Positions 1 through 5,688 of a stretch of 6,464 nt of DNA are shown here, piece after piece; the first letter of the stretch is position 1, and the number at the start of each line of letters is the position of its first letter. The stretch lies in assembly GCA_003193925.1 (NCBI GenBank), contig PSPG01000018.1:1-6464 (forward strand). The letters are read 5' to 3'. Made by a program: the position numbers and the translations under genes. The notes beneath the pieces are model-generated. The model saw only the letters and a program-made list of their open reading frames with translations, did not search any database and was not told where the DNA came from. Source of the stretch: Candidatus Thalassarchaeum betae. GTDB lineage: Archaea > Thermoplasmatota > Poseidoniia > Poseidoniales > Thalassarchaeaceae.

Positions 1-44
1 AGCAGGCTGATGGTCAGCAGCATGATGATGGCCGGCACGCTCCA
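1..44 (-). other. Start of a probable transmembrane segment near the C-terminus
   Basis: Residues 1642-1655 read WSVPAIIMLLTISL and are cut by the window edge. They follow the last Ig-like module and a polar linker, as expected for a single C-terminal membrane anchor. The full segment and any charged tail lie outside the window. Confidence 0.6.
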
Positions 45-3000
45 GCTCCCCAGCGTCTCGGTGGCCTGGTCTATCCACCCGTTGGAGGACTTGAGCCCGC
101 CCGGAATCTCGTAGAAGTTGTCCATCTCGCTCGACTCGACTATCTGGTTGTCAGGGTCGAGGATGATGGTCACGTCGTGCGACCCGGCCCTCACCGGGTA
201 GAGCAGCACTATCTCGGCCGGGTCGGCCCGGTCCGCCGCGTCGGGGCTCATCATCGCGCCGATGACCTGCCGGTACGCGACCGACTCCTCGGCGCAGCCG
301 TCGTTGGCCTTGATCTCGGCCAGCGACTGCTCGCAGACTATCACATGGATGTCCGTGGCGTGGACATTGCCGTCGTTGACGATGAACACGGTGATTGGCA
401 GCATGTCGCCGACATCCCCGCTCCGCTTCTCGACGGAGACGTCGTCGAAGCGCAGGTTGGGCGCCCTGAGCCGGATGGTGACCGGCAGCTCGTTGCTGTC
501 GAGCAAGTCGCCCTCCCAGGACTCGGTGTCGTCGTGGTCGCCGCCGTCGTAGGCGTTGCCGAAGAGCGAGCGGACCTTGAAGCCGAGGTCCTGGTTGCCC
601 AGCGCCGCCTCGCTGCTGATGTTGACCATGACCACCACCGGGATGGTGGTGTAGGCCGCCATCTCGGGCAGGATCCAGGTGTCGGTGGGGTGGTGGACGC
701 ACTCGTCCGCGGGCGCCTCGTCCCCGACCTCCAGTTCGCGGCACGGCACCTCGTAGGCGCCGTCCATGGTGGCCCACGATATCCTCCAGGTGGAGAGGTG
801 GCCCAGCCCGGGGGACTCGCCCCAGAGGCCGTTCGCGAGGTCGACGGTGTGGTTGTGCAGGGTCGCCCTGTCGGCGACGTTGCCGTTGTTGGTGACGTTG
901 AGGTTGAAGCGCACGGTGCGACCCGGTGCGGTGGTCTTGACGTCGCTCTCGACGAACGGGTCGAGCCAGATCTGCATGTCGTGGAACTCGTTCACGGTGA
1001 TGGTCAGCGTGACGCTGTCGCGCAGCCGCGTGGGCCTGCCCGCGGAGTCGGGGTAGGCCTCCTCGCTGAAGACGTCGAGGACGATCTCGTAGTCGCCCGC
1101 CTCGACCTGATGGGGCACGTTGACGCGGACCTCGATCTCCTCGACCTGGTCCCGCTGCAGCTCGCTGAGCAGGCCGCGCGGCACATCGACATCCCAGAGG
1201 ACATCGGAGCCGGAGGCGAGGGCGCTGACCCTCGCCACCCTGACGTCATAGCGGTCGGCGCCGTTGCCCTCGTTGACGGTGGTGAACGGCACCACTAGGG
1301 TCTCGGACGGGTCGACCGAGAACTCGGTCTCGGGGGTCGACGACTCGAGGTCGTAGACGTGGATGACGTTGGTCGAGAGCAGTACCGAGTCGGAGACCCG
1401 GCTGGCGCCGACCAGGTGCGCCTTGACGGTGAGGGCCGGCCCGAGGCCGGCGCTCGCGTTGTCGGGCGAGCAGATGACCGCCGTCACGGTGTACGGGTAG
1501 TCGATGGTGCCCCAGTGGCGGGGCTCGCTCATGCCCAGCGAGGTGCCGCCGGGGGCGTTGGTGAAGTCGAGCGAAACCACCCAGTTCTCCTGCCTCCAGA
1601 CGTGCTCGGGGACCTCGTCGGGCCGCGCACCGGGGGCGCCGGGGGTGGTGAACACCAGGTAGCCCGGCTGGAAGTGCTTGATGACATCTATGTCGTACTC
1701 GGCGCATTCGCCGGGGAGGACATACTCGGAGGTGTCGTAGATCTCGAAGACGATGTTGCCGCTGCTCCGTATCTCGACGTTGATCCACAGCTCGAGGACG
1801 TCCATGCTGCCCGACGAGACCGACTTGCGCGGCTCGCCGGTCGACCAGCCCTTCAGGAAGAGGGCGAACTTGCCGGGCTCCTGCGTGGCCGGGATGCTGA
1901 CCTCGAGGTTCTTGGTCACCGACTGACCGGGGTCGAGCGAGACCGACAGCGGGAAGCGGACCTGCCAGCCGAACGGCAGCAGCCACTCCTGCTGGCCCTC
2001 GATGGTGTTGGGGTCGTAGAAGGCGAAGGTGTCGAACACGTTCCCAGTGTTGGTGATGGTGATCGAGAAGATGGCGGTCTGCCCCTGCTCGACGTCCGCC
2101 TCGGAGTGGCTGGTGTCGAGCTGGATGCCGTGCTTGACGTCCATCATGGTCAGCGTCAGGCGGTCGCTGCGGATCGCCGGGTCCTTGTGCGATATCGCCG
2201 AGACCGTGACATAGGCGTTCTCGTCATGGTTGGCCTGGTAAACCGACGGCGCCCTGACCCGCATGTAGATGCGGGCCGACTCGCCGCCCCTCAGGTAGAT
2301 GTCCGTGTCGGGGAAGATGGCGGTGTGGTTGCTGGCGAAGAAGAGGGTCATCGACCAGTTGCCCGCGTTGCAGGTCTGGGATATCCCGTGCGCCTCCGCT
2401 ATCTCCCTTGGGATTACGCACAGCACGCTCATGTTCATCGAGTAGGTGTCAGCGACAAGGTCGACCGGTCCGGGCGTGGTGTTGTTGATGGTCATGTTGA
2501 AGATCGTCTCCTCGCCGGGCTCGATGATGTGCAGCCAGTCGGCGTCACCCTCCTCGAGGTAGACGTCGACCTGGCCGGTCAGGATGTGGGTGTAGCAGAT
2601 GGTGTACATGTTGTTGTTCGAGGTCCCATCGCACTTGCTGGTGTCCGACCAGGCGATGTGGGCGCCGCTGCCCATGTCGTTGGCGAAGGCGGGCGGCTGG
2701 CCCAGCTCGGGGGCGCGGCCGGTGTTGGGGCCGAGCTTGTCCGAGGCCCACCGGGTCACCGGGGTGACCTCCCACTCGTCGATGATGTAGGTGGCCAGCG
2801 AGTTGAGGGGGATGCCGTCGGGGTAGGCGTCGTTGGTGTGGTTGAGCCGGGTGTAGACGACCTCCTCGCCGGCGCTGACGTTGGAGTTCTCCAGCCACGC
2901 GATGTGGACATTGTCCTGGTTGTCCGTGAGGACCACCGGCATGTGGGAGGAGGGTCCCCACGGCCGCGAGGGCGGGATGTTGTTCTTGCCCTCGACGTTG

Positions 3001-4967
3001 GATATCGGGTAGTCGTAGATCTGCTTGATTCCGTACGTGGGCAGGCCGCCGTGCACCCCGTTCCACTCGGCTGCGCCGCGCAGGCGGAGGCGGGTGTACC
3101 AGACCTCGTAGTTGTCGTCCTTGTCGAAGCCGTAGCCGCGCCCGTCCATCCACACGAGGTGGGTGTTGCCGTTGGTGTCGATGGCTATGGAGGGGTGGAG
3201 GCTGAAGGAGTCGTCGATGGTGATTCTGGTGTCATTGACGACGACGAGGCTGCCGTAGCCCTGAGCATCGAGTGAGGGGCCGATTATCTCCTGATACGCA
3301 TTACCGCTGGTGATGTGTCCCTCATCACCGTACGCCCAACCCGGAGGTGGATTGTCGACAAGAGAGTGAGGGTCGAGGACGGTCATGTAGATCTCACGCG
3401 AGTTGTTGGTGGCGAGGTAGACCATCGCCTCGACGAGGATGTTCATCTGGTTGCTGCCGGTTGCGGGGAAGGCGTAGACCTGTCCTCCAGCATCTGTGTT
3501 CCTGGTGGTCGAACCCGGACAAATTCGAGTTCCCGTAGAGACTTGCCCGTTGGGGCACTGTGCCAGGTCCTTCATGTGCGACTGGATGGGGTTGCCGCCG
3601 CCCCATGTGCTGCCGTGCATTGGTACGGGGATGATACCCGCGCGCACGCAGGCGTCGTGCGCCTCGTTGATGCTCTGTATGTCGTCGGATTGCTGAGAGG
3701 GGTCGCCTCCGTAGGGACCCTCATCGGAGATGGGCATGACTATCTTGGTCGCGTTGGGGTTCCACTTGTGGTCCCTCTGCGTAGGAGGATTTCCGGGTGC
3801 ATTTCCGCTGGCGTCTATCCATGAGAGGCAGGCCCATGTCGAACCAGGGCCCCAGAACTCAGAGTAGTACCCACCGTCCTGAGGAAGGTTGACAGCTGAG
3901 CCACCGAACACGACCTCAGTCAACTTTCGGATTCCACCAGAGTCGTCACCCTGCACAAGACCGAGTGCCGTGGACCGCACATTGCCGCCGCTGCCGCCGG
4001 TTGCGTATGGGATTGCACAGGAGCCTTGCGTCGCGGCGCCCGGCGTGTTTCCACTTAGAAGATAGAGAGTTTCGTAGACGGTCATGTTGGCCTGCTCGAG
4101 CATCGGCTTGATGCCTTGGAAGAAACCGCCGCCGGACCAATAGCCGCCGTAGAGAACGGTGCACATGTCTGCCCATTCGGAATACATCGAACCTGAGGTG
4201 TCGATGGGGGCGACAATCTCCACCTTTCCACCACGGGTGTCGTCCCATACCACCTGAACGAAGTCATCTGCGTCGATTGCGATATCGGGATGGCCCTTGT
4301 GACCGATGACCGGGGTTAGAAGAGTATCATCGATTGCGGTGATGGCCTCTCTTGTCGCATAGTCGATGTCGAGCATCGTGTAGTATATCTGAGGCTGGTT
4401 GTAGAACTTGCCGAGCTGTTCGTACGCATCCTCCCAGACGATGTGAACGCTACCCTCCGAATCGATGTCGATTGCCGGCCAGTCGCGGTCCTGATTGCGC
4501 TGGCTGACTGTGTAATCGTCTACCAGACTGATTACGGAGTCTTCTCCTGACGAACCGTCCTGGTCGTCGTGGGCGGGGTCGAGAAGGGTGTAGAGAATGG
4601 AGTGCTGTCCCGACTTGTCAACCCAAGCGATGTGCACTCGACCTTCGTCGTCAACGACTATGTCCGGATGCCAGGCGCGATGGGCGCCGGGGTTGGAAAT
4701 CTGTGTCGCATCAATTACAGTTTGCGCGCGAGGATCGAGCATGGAATAGAATAGGTGCTGGGTATTTCGACTCCAGACAACATGTATGTTTCCTTCCGAA
4801 TCGGAGGCCACAGCGGCCATCCTATCGTTCACCTGTCCACCATCAACTATCTGCACAGCATCTGTGATTACCACCTGTGCTGCCTGCGTGGTTGGTGAAT
4901 AACCCGCGACAAAACTGCTGAACACCATCAGCAGGACCATCATCATACTCTTGTTCGTTTGATTCAT
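1..4967 (-). CDS. Giant secreted surface protein: seven-motif propeller with inserted vWA domain, then Ig-like (CARDB-type) modules; 3' end beyond window
   Basis: One uninterrupted minus-strand frame of about 1,655 codons with no stop before the left edge, so the C-terminus is missing. Residues 1-29 form a signal peptide. Propeller-like motifs end in Trp65, 115, 178, 241, 606, 691 and 773. A vWA domain (about 248-518) with MIDAS D256-T-S-G-S260 sits between motifs 4 and 5. Six Ig-like modules follow (about 798-1615), four carrying an N-x-G-N turn, then a hydrophobic stretch from 1644 to the edge. There are 16 visible cysteines and several N-x-S/T sequons. vWA domains bind ligands through a metal ion, and CARDB/NEW3-type modules are common in stalks of archaeal surface proteins; an adhesin or extracellular binding role is my inference. 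I chose the ATG at 4967 because GGAG lies 9 bases upstream; in-frame ATGs at 4973 and 4985 are alternatives. Specific function unknown. Confidence 0.9.
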   Translation of the reverse strand, partial: MNQTNKSMMMVLLMVFSSFVAGYSPTTQAAQVVITDAVQIVDGGQVNDRMAAVASDSEGNIHVVWSRNTQHLFYSMLDPRAQTVIDATQISNPGAHRAWHPDIVVDDEGRVHIAWVDKSGQHSILYTLLDPAHDDQDGSSGEDSVISLVDDYTVSQRNQDRDWPAIDIDSEGSVHIVWEDAYEQLGKFYNQPQIYYTMLDIDYATREAITAIDDTLLTPVIGHKGHPDIAIDADDFVQVVWDDTRGGKVEIVAPIDTSGSMYSEWADMCTVLYGGYWSGGGFFQGIKPMLEQANMTVYETLYLLSGNTPGAATQGSCAIPYATGGSGGNVRSTALGLVQGDDSGGIRKLTEVVFGGSAVNLPQDGGYYSEFWGPGSTWACLSWIDASGNAPGNPPTQRDHKWNPNATKIVMPISDEGPYGGDPSQQSDDIQSINEAHDACVRAGIIPVPMHGSTWGGGNPIQSHMKDLAQCPNGQVSTGTRICPGSTTRNTDAGGQVYAFPATGSNQMNILVEAMVYLATNNSREIYMTVLDPHSLVDNPPPGWAYGDEGHITSGNAYQEIIGPSLDAQGYGSLVVVNDTRITIDDSFSLHPSIAIDTNGNTHLVWMDGRGYGFDKDDNYEVWYTRLRLRGAAEWNGVHGGLPTYGIKQIYDYPISNVEGKNNIPPSRPWGPSSHMPVVLTDNQDNVHIAWLENSNVSAGEEVVYTRLNHTNDAYPDGIPLNSLATYIIDEWEVTPVTRWASDKLGPNTGRAPELGQPPAFANDMGSGAHIAWSDTSKCDGTSNNNMYTICYTHILTGQVDVYLEEGDADWLHIIEPGEETIFNMTINNTTPGPVDLVADTYSMNMSVLCVIPREIAEAHGISQTCNAGNWSMTLFFASNHTAIFPDTDIYLRGGESARIYMRVRAPSVYQANHDENAYVTVSAISHKDPAIRSDRLTLTMMDVKHGIQLDTSHSEADVEQGQTAIFSITITNTGNVFDTFAFYDPNTIEGQQEWLLPFGWQVRFPLSVSLDPGQSVTKNLEVSIPATQEPGKFALFLKGWSTGEPRKSVSSGSMDVLELWINVEIRSSGNIVFEIYDTSEYVLPGECAEYDIDVIKHFQPGYLVFTTPGAPGARPDEVPEHVWRQENWVVSLDFTNAPGGTSLGMSEPRHWGTIDYPYTVTAVICSPDNASAGLGPALTVKAHLVGASRVSDSVLLSTNVIHVYDLESSTPETEFSVDPSETLVVPFTTVNEGNGADRYDVRVARVSALASGSDVLWDVDVPRGLLSELQRDQVEEIEVRVNVPHQVEAGDYEIVLDVFSEEAYPDSAGRPTRLRDSVTLTITVNEFHDMQIWLDPFVESDVKTTAPGRTVRFNLNVTNNGNVADRATLHNHTVDLANGLWGESPGLGHLSTWRISWATMDGAYEVPCRELEVGDEAPADECVHHPTDTWILPEMAAYTTIPVVVMVNISSEAALGNQDLGFKVRSLFGNAYDGGDHDDTESWEGDLLDSNELPVTIRLRAPNLRFDDVSVEKRSGDVGDMLPITVFIVNDGNVHATDIHVIVCEQSLAEIKANDGCAEESVAYRQVIGAMMSPDAADRADPAEIVLLYPVRAGSHDVTIILDPDNQIVESSEMDNFYEIPGGLKSSNGWIDQATETLGSWSVPAIIMLLTISL
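120..2580 (-). repeat. Tandem Ig-like (CARDB/NEW3-type) modules forming a stalk
   Basis: About six beta-rich modules at residues roughly 798-930, 944-1050, 1054-1190, 1200-1318, 1326-1498 and 1500-1615. Modules 2, 4, 5 and 6 share a strand-turn signature N-x-G-N at N973-N976 (NTGN), N1232-N1235 (NEGN), N1360-N1363 (NNGN) and N1531-N1534 (NDGN). In modules 2, 4 and 5 a line of the type PGxTxxxxxxxxN (for example EQGQTAIFSITITNTGN) precedes it. This is the usual look of CARDB or NEW3-like adhesion modules in archaeal and bacterial exported proteins. Cysteine pairs 850/866, 1088/1166, 1409/1423 and 1545/1558 fall within modules 1, 3, 5 and 6. Module boundaries are approximate. Confidence 0.65.
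2649..4808 (-). repeat. Seven degenerate beta-propeller-like motifs, split 4 + 3 by the vWA domain
   Basis: The motif is roughly S/D-D-x-E/N-G-x-x-H-[IVL]-x-W, with its Trp at residues 65, 115, 178, 241, 606, 691 and 773. Examples are SDSEGNIHVVW, DDEGRVHIAW, DSEGSVHIVW, DTNGNTHLVW and NDMGSGAHIAW. Motifs 2, 3, 5, 6 and 7 are followed within about 15-30 residues by a Y-x-x-[ML]/Y-T-x-[LI] strand such as YTLL, YYTML, YTRL or YTHI. This resembles the Asp-box/BNR-like repeats of sialidase-type propellers, and seven copies suit a seven-bladed propeller. Motif spacing is 50-85 residues, except for the ~365 residues between motifs 4 and 5 that hold the vWA domain. The exact propeller family is uncertain. 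Confidence 0.65.
3414..4226 (-). other. von Willebrand factor A domain inserted in the propeller
   Basis: Residues about 248-518 of the giant protein. The opening strand VEIVAPIDTSGSM carries the MIDAS DxSxS motif (D256, S258, S260). A candidate second MIDAS threonine is T323, 67 residues later, in YATGGSGGN. The third motif is the strand IVMPISDEG with D415. The later helix ILVEAMVYL suits the end of a vWA fold. Six cysteines (269, 317, 380, 440, 471, 483) are confined to this domain, suggesting three disulfides. It is longer than a typical ~180-residue vWA, with extra sequence between D256 and D415 (aromatic, Gly-rich). A metal-dependent binding role is inferred from the intact motif. Confidence 0.8.
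4881..4967 (-). other. Sec-type signal peptide of the giant surface protein
   Basis: Residues 1-29: a short polar start with one lysine (MNQTNKS), a hydrophobic core MMMVLLMVFSSFVAG, and a polar stretch ending T-Q-A before A-Q-V-V, a plausible signal peptidase I site after Ala29. This implies export. Starting at 4973 or 4985 would add 2 or 6 residues (MPESME...) without spoiling the signal. Confidence 0.8.
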
Positions 4968-4976
4968 TTCCATCGA

Positions 4977-4980
4977 CTCC
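4977..4980 (-). promoter_or_regulatory. Candidate ribosome binding site (GGAG) for the giant gene
   Basis: On the minus strand GGAG is followed by TCGATGGAA and then the ATG at 4967, a spacing of 9 bases. The ATG at 4973 is only 3 bases from GGAG, too close for it to act as a Shine-Dalgarno site, and the ATG at 4985 lies upstream of it. This favours 4967, but leaderless or weakly led translation is common in archaea, so it is suggestive only. Confidence 0.35.
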
Positions 4981-5018
4981 GGCATCTCTGCCAACAGTCC
5001 CGAACGGGCTCAAAGTCC

Positions 5019-5070: not shown

Positions 5071-5688
5071 TCAAAGCCACTCTGACGGGTCGAAGCCAGA
5101 GCCAAAGGTCCCACCTTCGTCGGTGCTGACGACATTGTCCGTTGAGGGGGGTTGCTGCGCCCCTTCAGGAGCCTGCTGCCAATCATCCACGGGTCCCGGT
5201 CTTCCGACGCCCGGGCCGTACGAGTACTTGATTTCGTGAATCAGCGCCAACTTGGTCAGCCAAAGGTGGCGAAGCGTCTGCATCAACTCATTTTGGCTCA
5301 GTCCATCACTCCAAATCGGTTGGCTCAAGTTGAACGCCTGCAGAGGTCCGGGGGGTGCCTCGTTCGAGTTGCGGACATGCAGAACCCAATCGACTCCGCT
5401 GCGCGTGAGGTGGAGGCGGGTGTCGTGCAGCCAAGACTCCCAACCTTCGCCATCCTCAGCGGTGTTGCGCACCATCTCATCCTGCTGACCTGCATCGACT
5501 TGAGTGACAGTTGAGACCACCACGAGGTTGCGCTGTTTGGGTGATGCGATGATGAAGACGTGGCCGTGTGGGGTGGGGGGATAGCGGACAAGCAAGTGGA
5601 AGCGGGCACGGGGGTCGGGGCGATCCCTAACCTCCAGACCCTCGGAGGTGAGCCAGTTGCGAACGTTCGCCTCCATCTCGTCGGCCAT
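5071..5688 (-). CDS. Conserved-looking cytoplasmic protein of unknown function, possibly DUF2299-like
   Basis: A complete 205-residue protein, ATG at 5688 and stop TGA. No signal peptide or membrane segment, so probably cytoplasmic. Order: N-terminal helix with NWLTSEG (11-17), strand-rich part LEVRDRPDPRARFHLLVRYP (18-37), paired strands HVFIIASP (43-50) and NLVVVSTVTQV (54-64), helix ESWLHDTRLHL (84-94), strand DWVLHV (100-105), helix ELMQTLRHLWLTKLALIHEI (134-153), and a low-complexity Pro/Gly/Asp tail (158-205). The start (helix, then W-L-x-x-E-G-x-E-V-x-x-x-P-D-P-x-A-x-F-H) recalls archaeal DUF2299 proteins, a family of unknown function; this is from memory and unverified. It starts 20 bases after the stop of the membrane-protein gene, so the two probably share a transcript. 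No clear Shine-Dalgarno site precedes the ATG. I assign no function. Confidence 0.8.
   Translation of the reverse strand: MADEMEANVRNWLTSEGLEVRDRPDPRARFHLLVRYPPTPHGHVFIIASPKQRNLVVVSTVTQVDAGQQDEMVRNTAEDGEGWESWLHDTRLHLTRSGVDWVLHVRNSNEAPPGPLQAFNLSQPIWSDGLSQNELMQTLRHLWLTKLALIHEIKYSYGPGVGRPGPVDDWQQAPEGAQQPPSTDNVVSTDEGGTFGSGFDPSEWL

Follow-up and report, generated by a model that had tools for sequence, protein, structure and literature searches.

The window, by which we mean the whole stretch of 6464 bases that was analysed, is the entire contig C14 of a 1.48 Mb archaeal genome (G000), and it carries on its minus strand an ORF (3..4994) of which 1664 amino acids lie in the window before it is cut by the contig end; the likely start Met is at 4967-4973. 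Homologues of the encoded protein come from Candidatus Poseidoniales / Thalassarchaeaceae, that is, from Marine Group II (MGII), so that the archaeal source suspected in the earlier note is confirmed. Marine Group II archaea are abundant surface-ocean plankton. As the ORF runs off the contig, the C-terminus of the protein was taken from relatives. The orthologues are ~1670-1730 residues long and carry a signal-peptide-like segment at the start and, at the other end, a membrane helix followed by a short tail (e.g. GRRAEVNNRLAEQSSL). In the window's own protein the hydrophobic, signal-peptide-like N-terminal segment comprises residues 10-38 (4881..4967, minus strand), is recognisable from the sequence and has a position conserved in the orthologues. 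The ends, judged by sequence, are of the export type, and we predict an exported protein of ~1700 residues. The Ig-like stalk proposed for it is also upheld, since 135..2558 (minus strand) matches DUF7507, NPCBM_assoc and CARDB and thus consists of Ig-like/CARDB-type domains; a choice_anch_T match in the same region falls just under the cut-off. Directly upstream lies a gene for a DUF2299 protein of 205 amino acids (5071..5688, minus strand), which was matched in 78 of the 83 loci searched and may be a partner of the surface protein. Further upstream, a membrane protein of at least 251 amino acids, cut by the contig end (5709..6464, minus strand), is matched in 69/83 loci and gave no Pfam or NCBIfam match; it evolves fast (~21-57% identity), yet its position upstream is kept across the order.

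The motif D-x-x-[GDNS]-x-x-[HQ]-x-x-W occurs seven times in the head (window 2649-4802, minus strand), four times ahead of an inserted domain and three times behind it, and the seven motifs counted from the bare sequence are therefore all present. Their number is far above chance: the strict form D..G..H..W is found four times where shuffled composition predicts 0.0045, and the relaxed core [GDNS]..[HQ][VILM][VIA]W exactly seven times where it predicts 0.002. Motif 4 has the form D..D..Q..W and motif 7 the form D..S..H..W; all seven motifs keep their D, H/Q and W invariant or nearly so in 45 orthologues. Based on the predicted model, the motif count and this conservation, the blades were delimited, all on the minus strand, as blade 1 (4686..4838, motif 4773-4802), blade 2 (4497..4685, motif 4623-4652), blade 3 (4308..4496, motif 4434-4463), blade 5 (2946..3200, motif 3150-3179), blade 6 (2700..2945, motif 2895-2924) and strands 1-3 of blade 7 (2571..2699, motif 2649-2678). 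Blade 4 is split. Its strands 1 and 2, HPDIAIDADDFVQVVWDDTRGGKV, occupy 4221..4307 (minus strand) according to the model, the motif count and homologues that lack the interruption, while its third strand, EIYMTVLDP (residues 534-542; 3369..3395, minus strand), was located by a held-out profile and coincides with strand 499-505 of the model; the rest of the blade, with the outer strand LVVVNDTRIT, is assigned by the model to 3201..3368 (minus strand). An N-terminal strand of the model, residues 40-52 (4839..4877, minus strand), is proposed to be the outer strand of blade 7, closing the ring in velcro fashion.

The earlier note had placed the break in the propeller between blades 4 and 5; the data put it instead within blade 4. 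In every blade the motif is followed by a third strand of xIxYTxLDP type, and when a profile built from the other six blades was run over the head, the held-out blade-4 strand EIYMTVLDP was the top non-training match in the whole head, with residues 534-542 scoring 12.7 and the next non-training window 5.3. Since this strand comes after the insert, the insert (residues 259-533) interrupts blade 4 itself, at the hairpin that joins strands 2 and 3. Uninterrupted homologues agree. Proteins at three loci of other Thermoplasmatota (L183, L185 and L187) have a homologous propeller, 27-30% identical to the N-terminal half of the MGII protein, and L183 has seven motifs; where the MGII protein carries 275 residues, these proteins have short blade hairpins (e.g. 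DSRDANPEIYY) and no vWA domain, and L185 and L187 resemble the MGII protein also in the CARDB/Ig-type sequence seen by eye after the propeller. When the insert was deleted in silico, hhalign crossed the junction, pairing WDDTRGGKVNSREIYMTVLD with WSDEYQTPSGEIFYMMLD and WTDSRDANPEIYYSLLKP (L183 and L187, respectively), and against L183 the score increased (129 before, 145-146 after), as did the number of aligned columns (176 before, 283-292 after). When the deletion was shifted off its place by more than a few residues, the L183 score mostly lay at 64-138, although a deletion of 259-504, with its end 20 residues earlier, still reached 143. The preference was clear with L183 only; with L187 and L185, possible slippage of the repeats made this breakpoint control ambiguous. 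Homologues without the vWA domain thus exist, but the propeller in them is continuous rather than one of two halves occurring alone, which supports an insertion over the joining of two unrelated halves.

To predict the structure of the head, residues 36-830 were modelled with AlphaFold2 from an alignment of 40 orthologues. The model has a pTM of 0.70 and a mean pLDDT of only 66, with values mostly above 80 in blades 1-4 and in the strand that follows the insert, and poor ones in the insert itself and the long loops. Compared by VIA-align with known structures, the head model matched CylK (Z 31.5, 352 residues, 2.8 A), YncE (Z 29.9, 299/315 residues, 2.4 A), RACK1 (Z 27.9), the Photorhabdus PLL lectins (Z 26-28) and the integrin alpha-M, alpha-X and alpha-L chains (Z ~24), with model residues 7-773 aligning to closed rings across the inserted domain. 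The near-complete coverage of the seven-bladed rings YncE, RACK1 and PLL supports seven four-stranded blades, a count which is a prediction backed independently by the motifs. The single closed seven-bladed propeller that had been suggested is therefore what the model predicts, its chain aligning as a whole, interruption included, to closed rings. It does not show two separate partial sheets, and an arrangement of the two halves as separate partial propellers was rejected on the whole-ring match. The N-terminal closing strand gave a weak profile score (3.3 vs 9.1 for an unrelated window), and closure of the ring by this strand consequently rests on the model. When the window protein or profiles derived from it were searched against Pfam and the PDB sequences, no propeller family came up as significant, and the head profile matched no PDB sequence.

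The inserted domain (residues 259-533; 3396..4220, minus strand) was identified as vWA-like from its conservation and from weak fold and Pfam matches. Its putative metal ion-dependent adhesion site (MIDAS) includes the motif DTSGS (residues 265-269; 4188..4202, minus strand), in which the D, S and S are invariant in 45/45 orthologues, as is the candidate MIDAS Asp, residue 424 in PISDEGP (3723..3725, minus strand); both motifs were found in 80/80 loci. These are the residues that the earlier note had listed as D256, S258, S260 and D415; counted along the ORF translated from its first TTG, as here, they are 265, 267, 269 and 424 (an offset of 9). For the third MIDAS residue, S385 or T386 in GPGSTW (3837..3842, minus strand) is the probable candidate, an uncertain assignment from spacing, S or T being present at 385 or 386 in 45/45 rows with no single fixed position. 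Six cysteines are likewise invariant in the insert across the 45 orthologues. The MIDAS residues stand as described before; for the vWA label itself the support is only moderate. Pfam VWA (PF00092) is the family matched by most members, yet only by 11/41 (best E 0.0041) and not by the window's own sequence, and neither Pfam nor the PDB sequences yielded a vWA domain when searched with the window protein or with profiles of it; the family search proposed in the earlier note thus yielded weak VWA matches and no propeller family. A separate model of the domain, of low confidence after residue 200, aligned by VIA-align to the integrin beta-8 I-like domain (Z 6.5), the alpha-M I domain (6.1) and VWF A3 (5.6), all below the Z of 8 under which such matches are not safe, and Foldseek with this model alone returned no match at E <= 0.001. 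The insert resembles VWF A3 and the integrin I domains (PF00092) in its predicted fold order and in the MIDAS motif, although the matches are weak; it differs from them in its six invariant cysteines, in the weakness of the similarity and, by spacing, in an apparent ~50 additional residues ahead of the third MIDAS loop. We regard it as a likely, though not proven, divergent vWA domain.

Homologues with the same domain order, a search for which had been suggested, proved to be widespread. Among 292 Thermoplasmatota genomes, 81 of them from Poseidoniales, the propeller and vWA family is present in 79 of the 81 Poseidoniales; it is absent from the six genomes of a different family in the class (presumably Marine Group III), any matches elsewhere among the 292 were to the propeller only, without the vWA part, and a scan of IMG/VR gave no relative. 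Two 510-residue proteins that seemed similar (L143, L144) have one motif each and were left out. Genome G000 has four copies, on C14 (the window), C7, C13 and C4. The C7 copy has the same architecture as that of the window, those on C13 and C4 have stalks of DxDxDG calcium-type repeats, and the C4 copy bears an extra domain after the vWA domain; stalks thus vary among paralogues between Ig-like and Ca-binding repeats. In the head, by comparison, the vWA domain is 44-74% conserved across all paralogues against 24-65% for the propeller halves, and being the best-conserved part of the head in every paralogue it is probably the working part. Some paralogues depart from the common plan: that at L008 (3475-8709, minus strand) has an extra domain of ~190-260 residues that follows the vWA domain and precedes the completing strand of blade 4, and that at L148 (1510-6702) reads DSSGG where DxSxS is expected, so that its metal site, by sequence, may be altered or lost. 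At L081 (5938-12869) a second gene copy follows the first by ~150 bases, and tandem copies occur in that genus.

The sequences together with the model point to export-type ends, an interrupted ring with a defined insertion point, a conserved MIDAS and a wide distribution in the order, and the reading we consider probable is that of a metal-dependent surface adhesin or receptor of Poseidoniales, with a MIDAS-bearing vWA domain inserted in a propeller head on a stalk. The protein would be anchored in the membrane as a type I surface protein and bear at its tip a PDIAV/BNR-like seven-bladed propeller, of a kind that also occurs insert-free in other Thermoplasmatota and into which the vWA domain would have been inserted within MGII. 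The stalk would carry the tip away from the membrane and give it reach, and the vWA domain would project from one propeller face, its MIDAS holding a divalent metal that could bind an acidic group of a ligand, be it a particle polymer, a glycan or a protein of another cell. The propeller would serve as a rigid mount and possibly as a second binding surface. Metal binding, the ligand, adhesion and any signalling through the short cytoplasmic tail are suggested by the vWA family, adhesion being a general function of such architectures rather than one deduced from a ligand.

Other explanations must be weighed against an adhesin or receptor. The presence of the family in 79/81 genomes, often as one full-length copy per genome in family f2, the conserved gene neighbourhood and the very high conservation of the vWA residues would also suit a structural, S-layer-like or S-layer-anchoring component of the envelope, in which propeller and vWA domain make lateral lattice contacts and the metal site is structural. 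We nevertheless think this unlikely, as the family f1 paralogues, several per genome and with quite different stalks, fit a set of receptors better. The propeller might instead do the work, as in sialidases, GH43 enzymes, polysaccharide lyases or the Photorhabdus lectins, making the protein a surface carbohydrate-active enzyme or lectin that the vWA domain positions or regulates. The best Foldseek matches are indeed sialidases, glycoside hydrolases, lyases and PLL lectins, the last of which are also in the VIA-align list, but such matches reflect a common propeller fold, the full-model TM-scores are low and the identities 6-14%. No catalytic set was identified in the propeller, whose conservation moreover falls short of that of the vWA domain in every paralogue, and an enzyme or lectin appears quite improbable. 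That the insert is some other Rossmann-like domain with a fortuitous DxSxS match would agree with the lack of a significant Foldseek match, the VIA-align Z below 8 and the failure of Pfam on the window's own sequence. It is hard to reconcile with the invariant DxSxS and the later PxSDE in the expected order, with VWA being the family matched by most members and with A and I domains heading the structural list, and we hold it to be very unlikely.

Taking the protein, then, as an adhesin or receptor, its closest architectural counterpart is the integrin alpha-I subunit, likewise a stalked type I membrane protein in which a vWA domain interrupts a seven-bladed propeller near the N-terminus. In propellers, the loops between strands 2 and 3 and those between strand 4 and strand 1 share one face, and the MGII insert should consequently project from the same face as the integrin I domain. 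The insertion point is different, lying within blade 4, unlike that of the I domain, which is placed between blades 2 and 3 (PMC3192720, PMC10659397). The blades differ as well, being PDIAV/BNR-like in MGII and FG-GAP in integrin alpha, and FG-GAP gave no Pfam match at E <= 1 with the window protein. Without FG-GAP repeats and with another insertion point, the protein does not belong to the integrin alpha family. Integrin alpha also has an obligate beta-subunit partner, whereas the neighbours of the MGII gene encode the DUF2299 protein and the membrane protein, and no beta subunit was identified among them. The MGII head is best called a convergent variant of the alpha-I arrangement, not a relative of it. 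Of the independently built integrin-like head envisaged previously, the apparent independent assembly stands, there being no detectable sequence relation to integrins, and the likeness does not extend to the insertion point. The blade motif is shared with the PDIAV motif-containing lipoprotein NF053835, which matches residues 18-131 with an E of 2.7e-16, yet at 60 of 90 bits this is below the cut-off and the 458-position model is matched only partly; no lipobox was seen in the MGII protein.

In the open-licence papers searched, no description of the MGII protein was found, and a vWA domain within a propeller was otherwise met only in chordate integrin alpha subunits. Thrombospondin genes are mentioned in the group by Rinke et al. 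2018 (PMC6461757), and these could correspond to the paralogues whose stalks consist of calcium-type repeats. We suggest, tentatively and at somewhat less than even odds, that MGII evolved independently of animals an integrin-alpha-I-like head as a near-universal, metal-dependent adhesion or recognition system diversified through its stalks. A second independent case with surviving uninterrupted relatives would mean that such heads can arise by a single domain insertion, and it puts a name to a concrete, near-universal surface protein of abundant uncultured archaea of the ocean, a group for which particle attachment is under debate.

Two observations concern the source of individual sequences. 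A contig titled 'uncultured Rhodobiaceae bacterium' (L095) encodes the archaeal protein at 59% identity and is probably a mislabelled or contaminated MAG. Over 5670 bases, contig C14 itself shares 95.0% identity with a contig from a MAG assigned to a different genus (L043), and the C7 copy of the same genome resembles same-genus genomes at 75-84%; C14 has probably been misbinned, or else was recently transferred.
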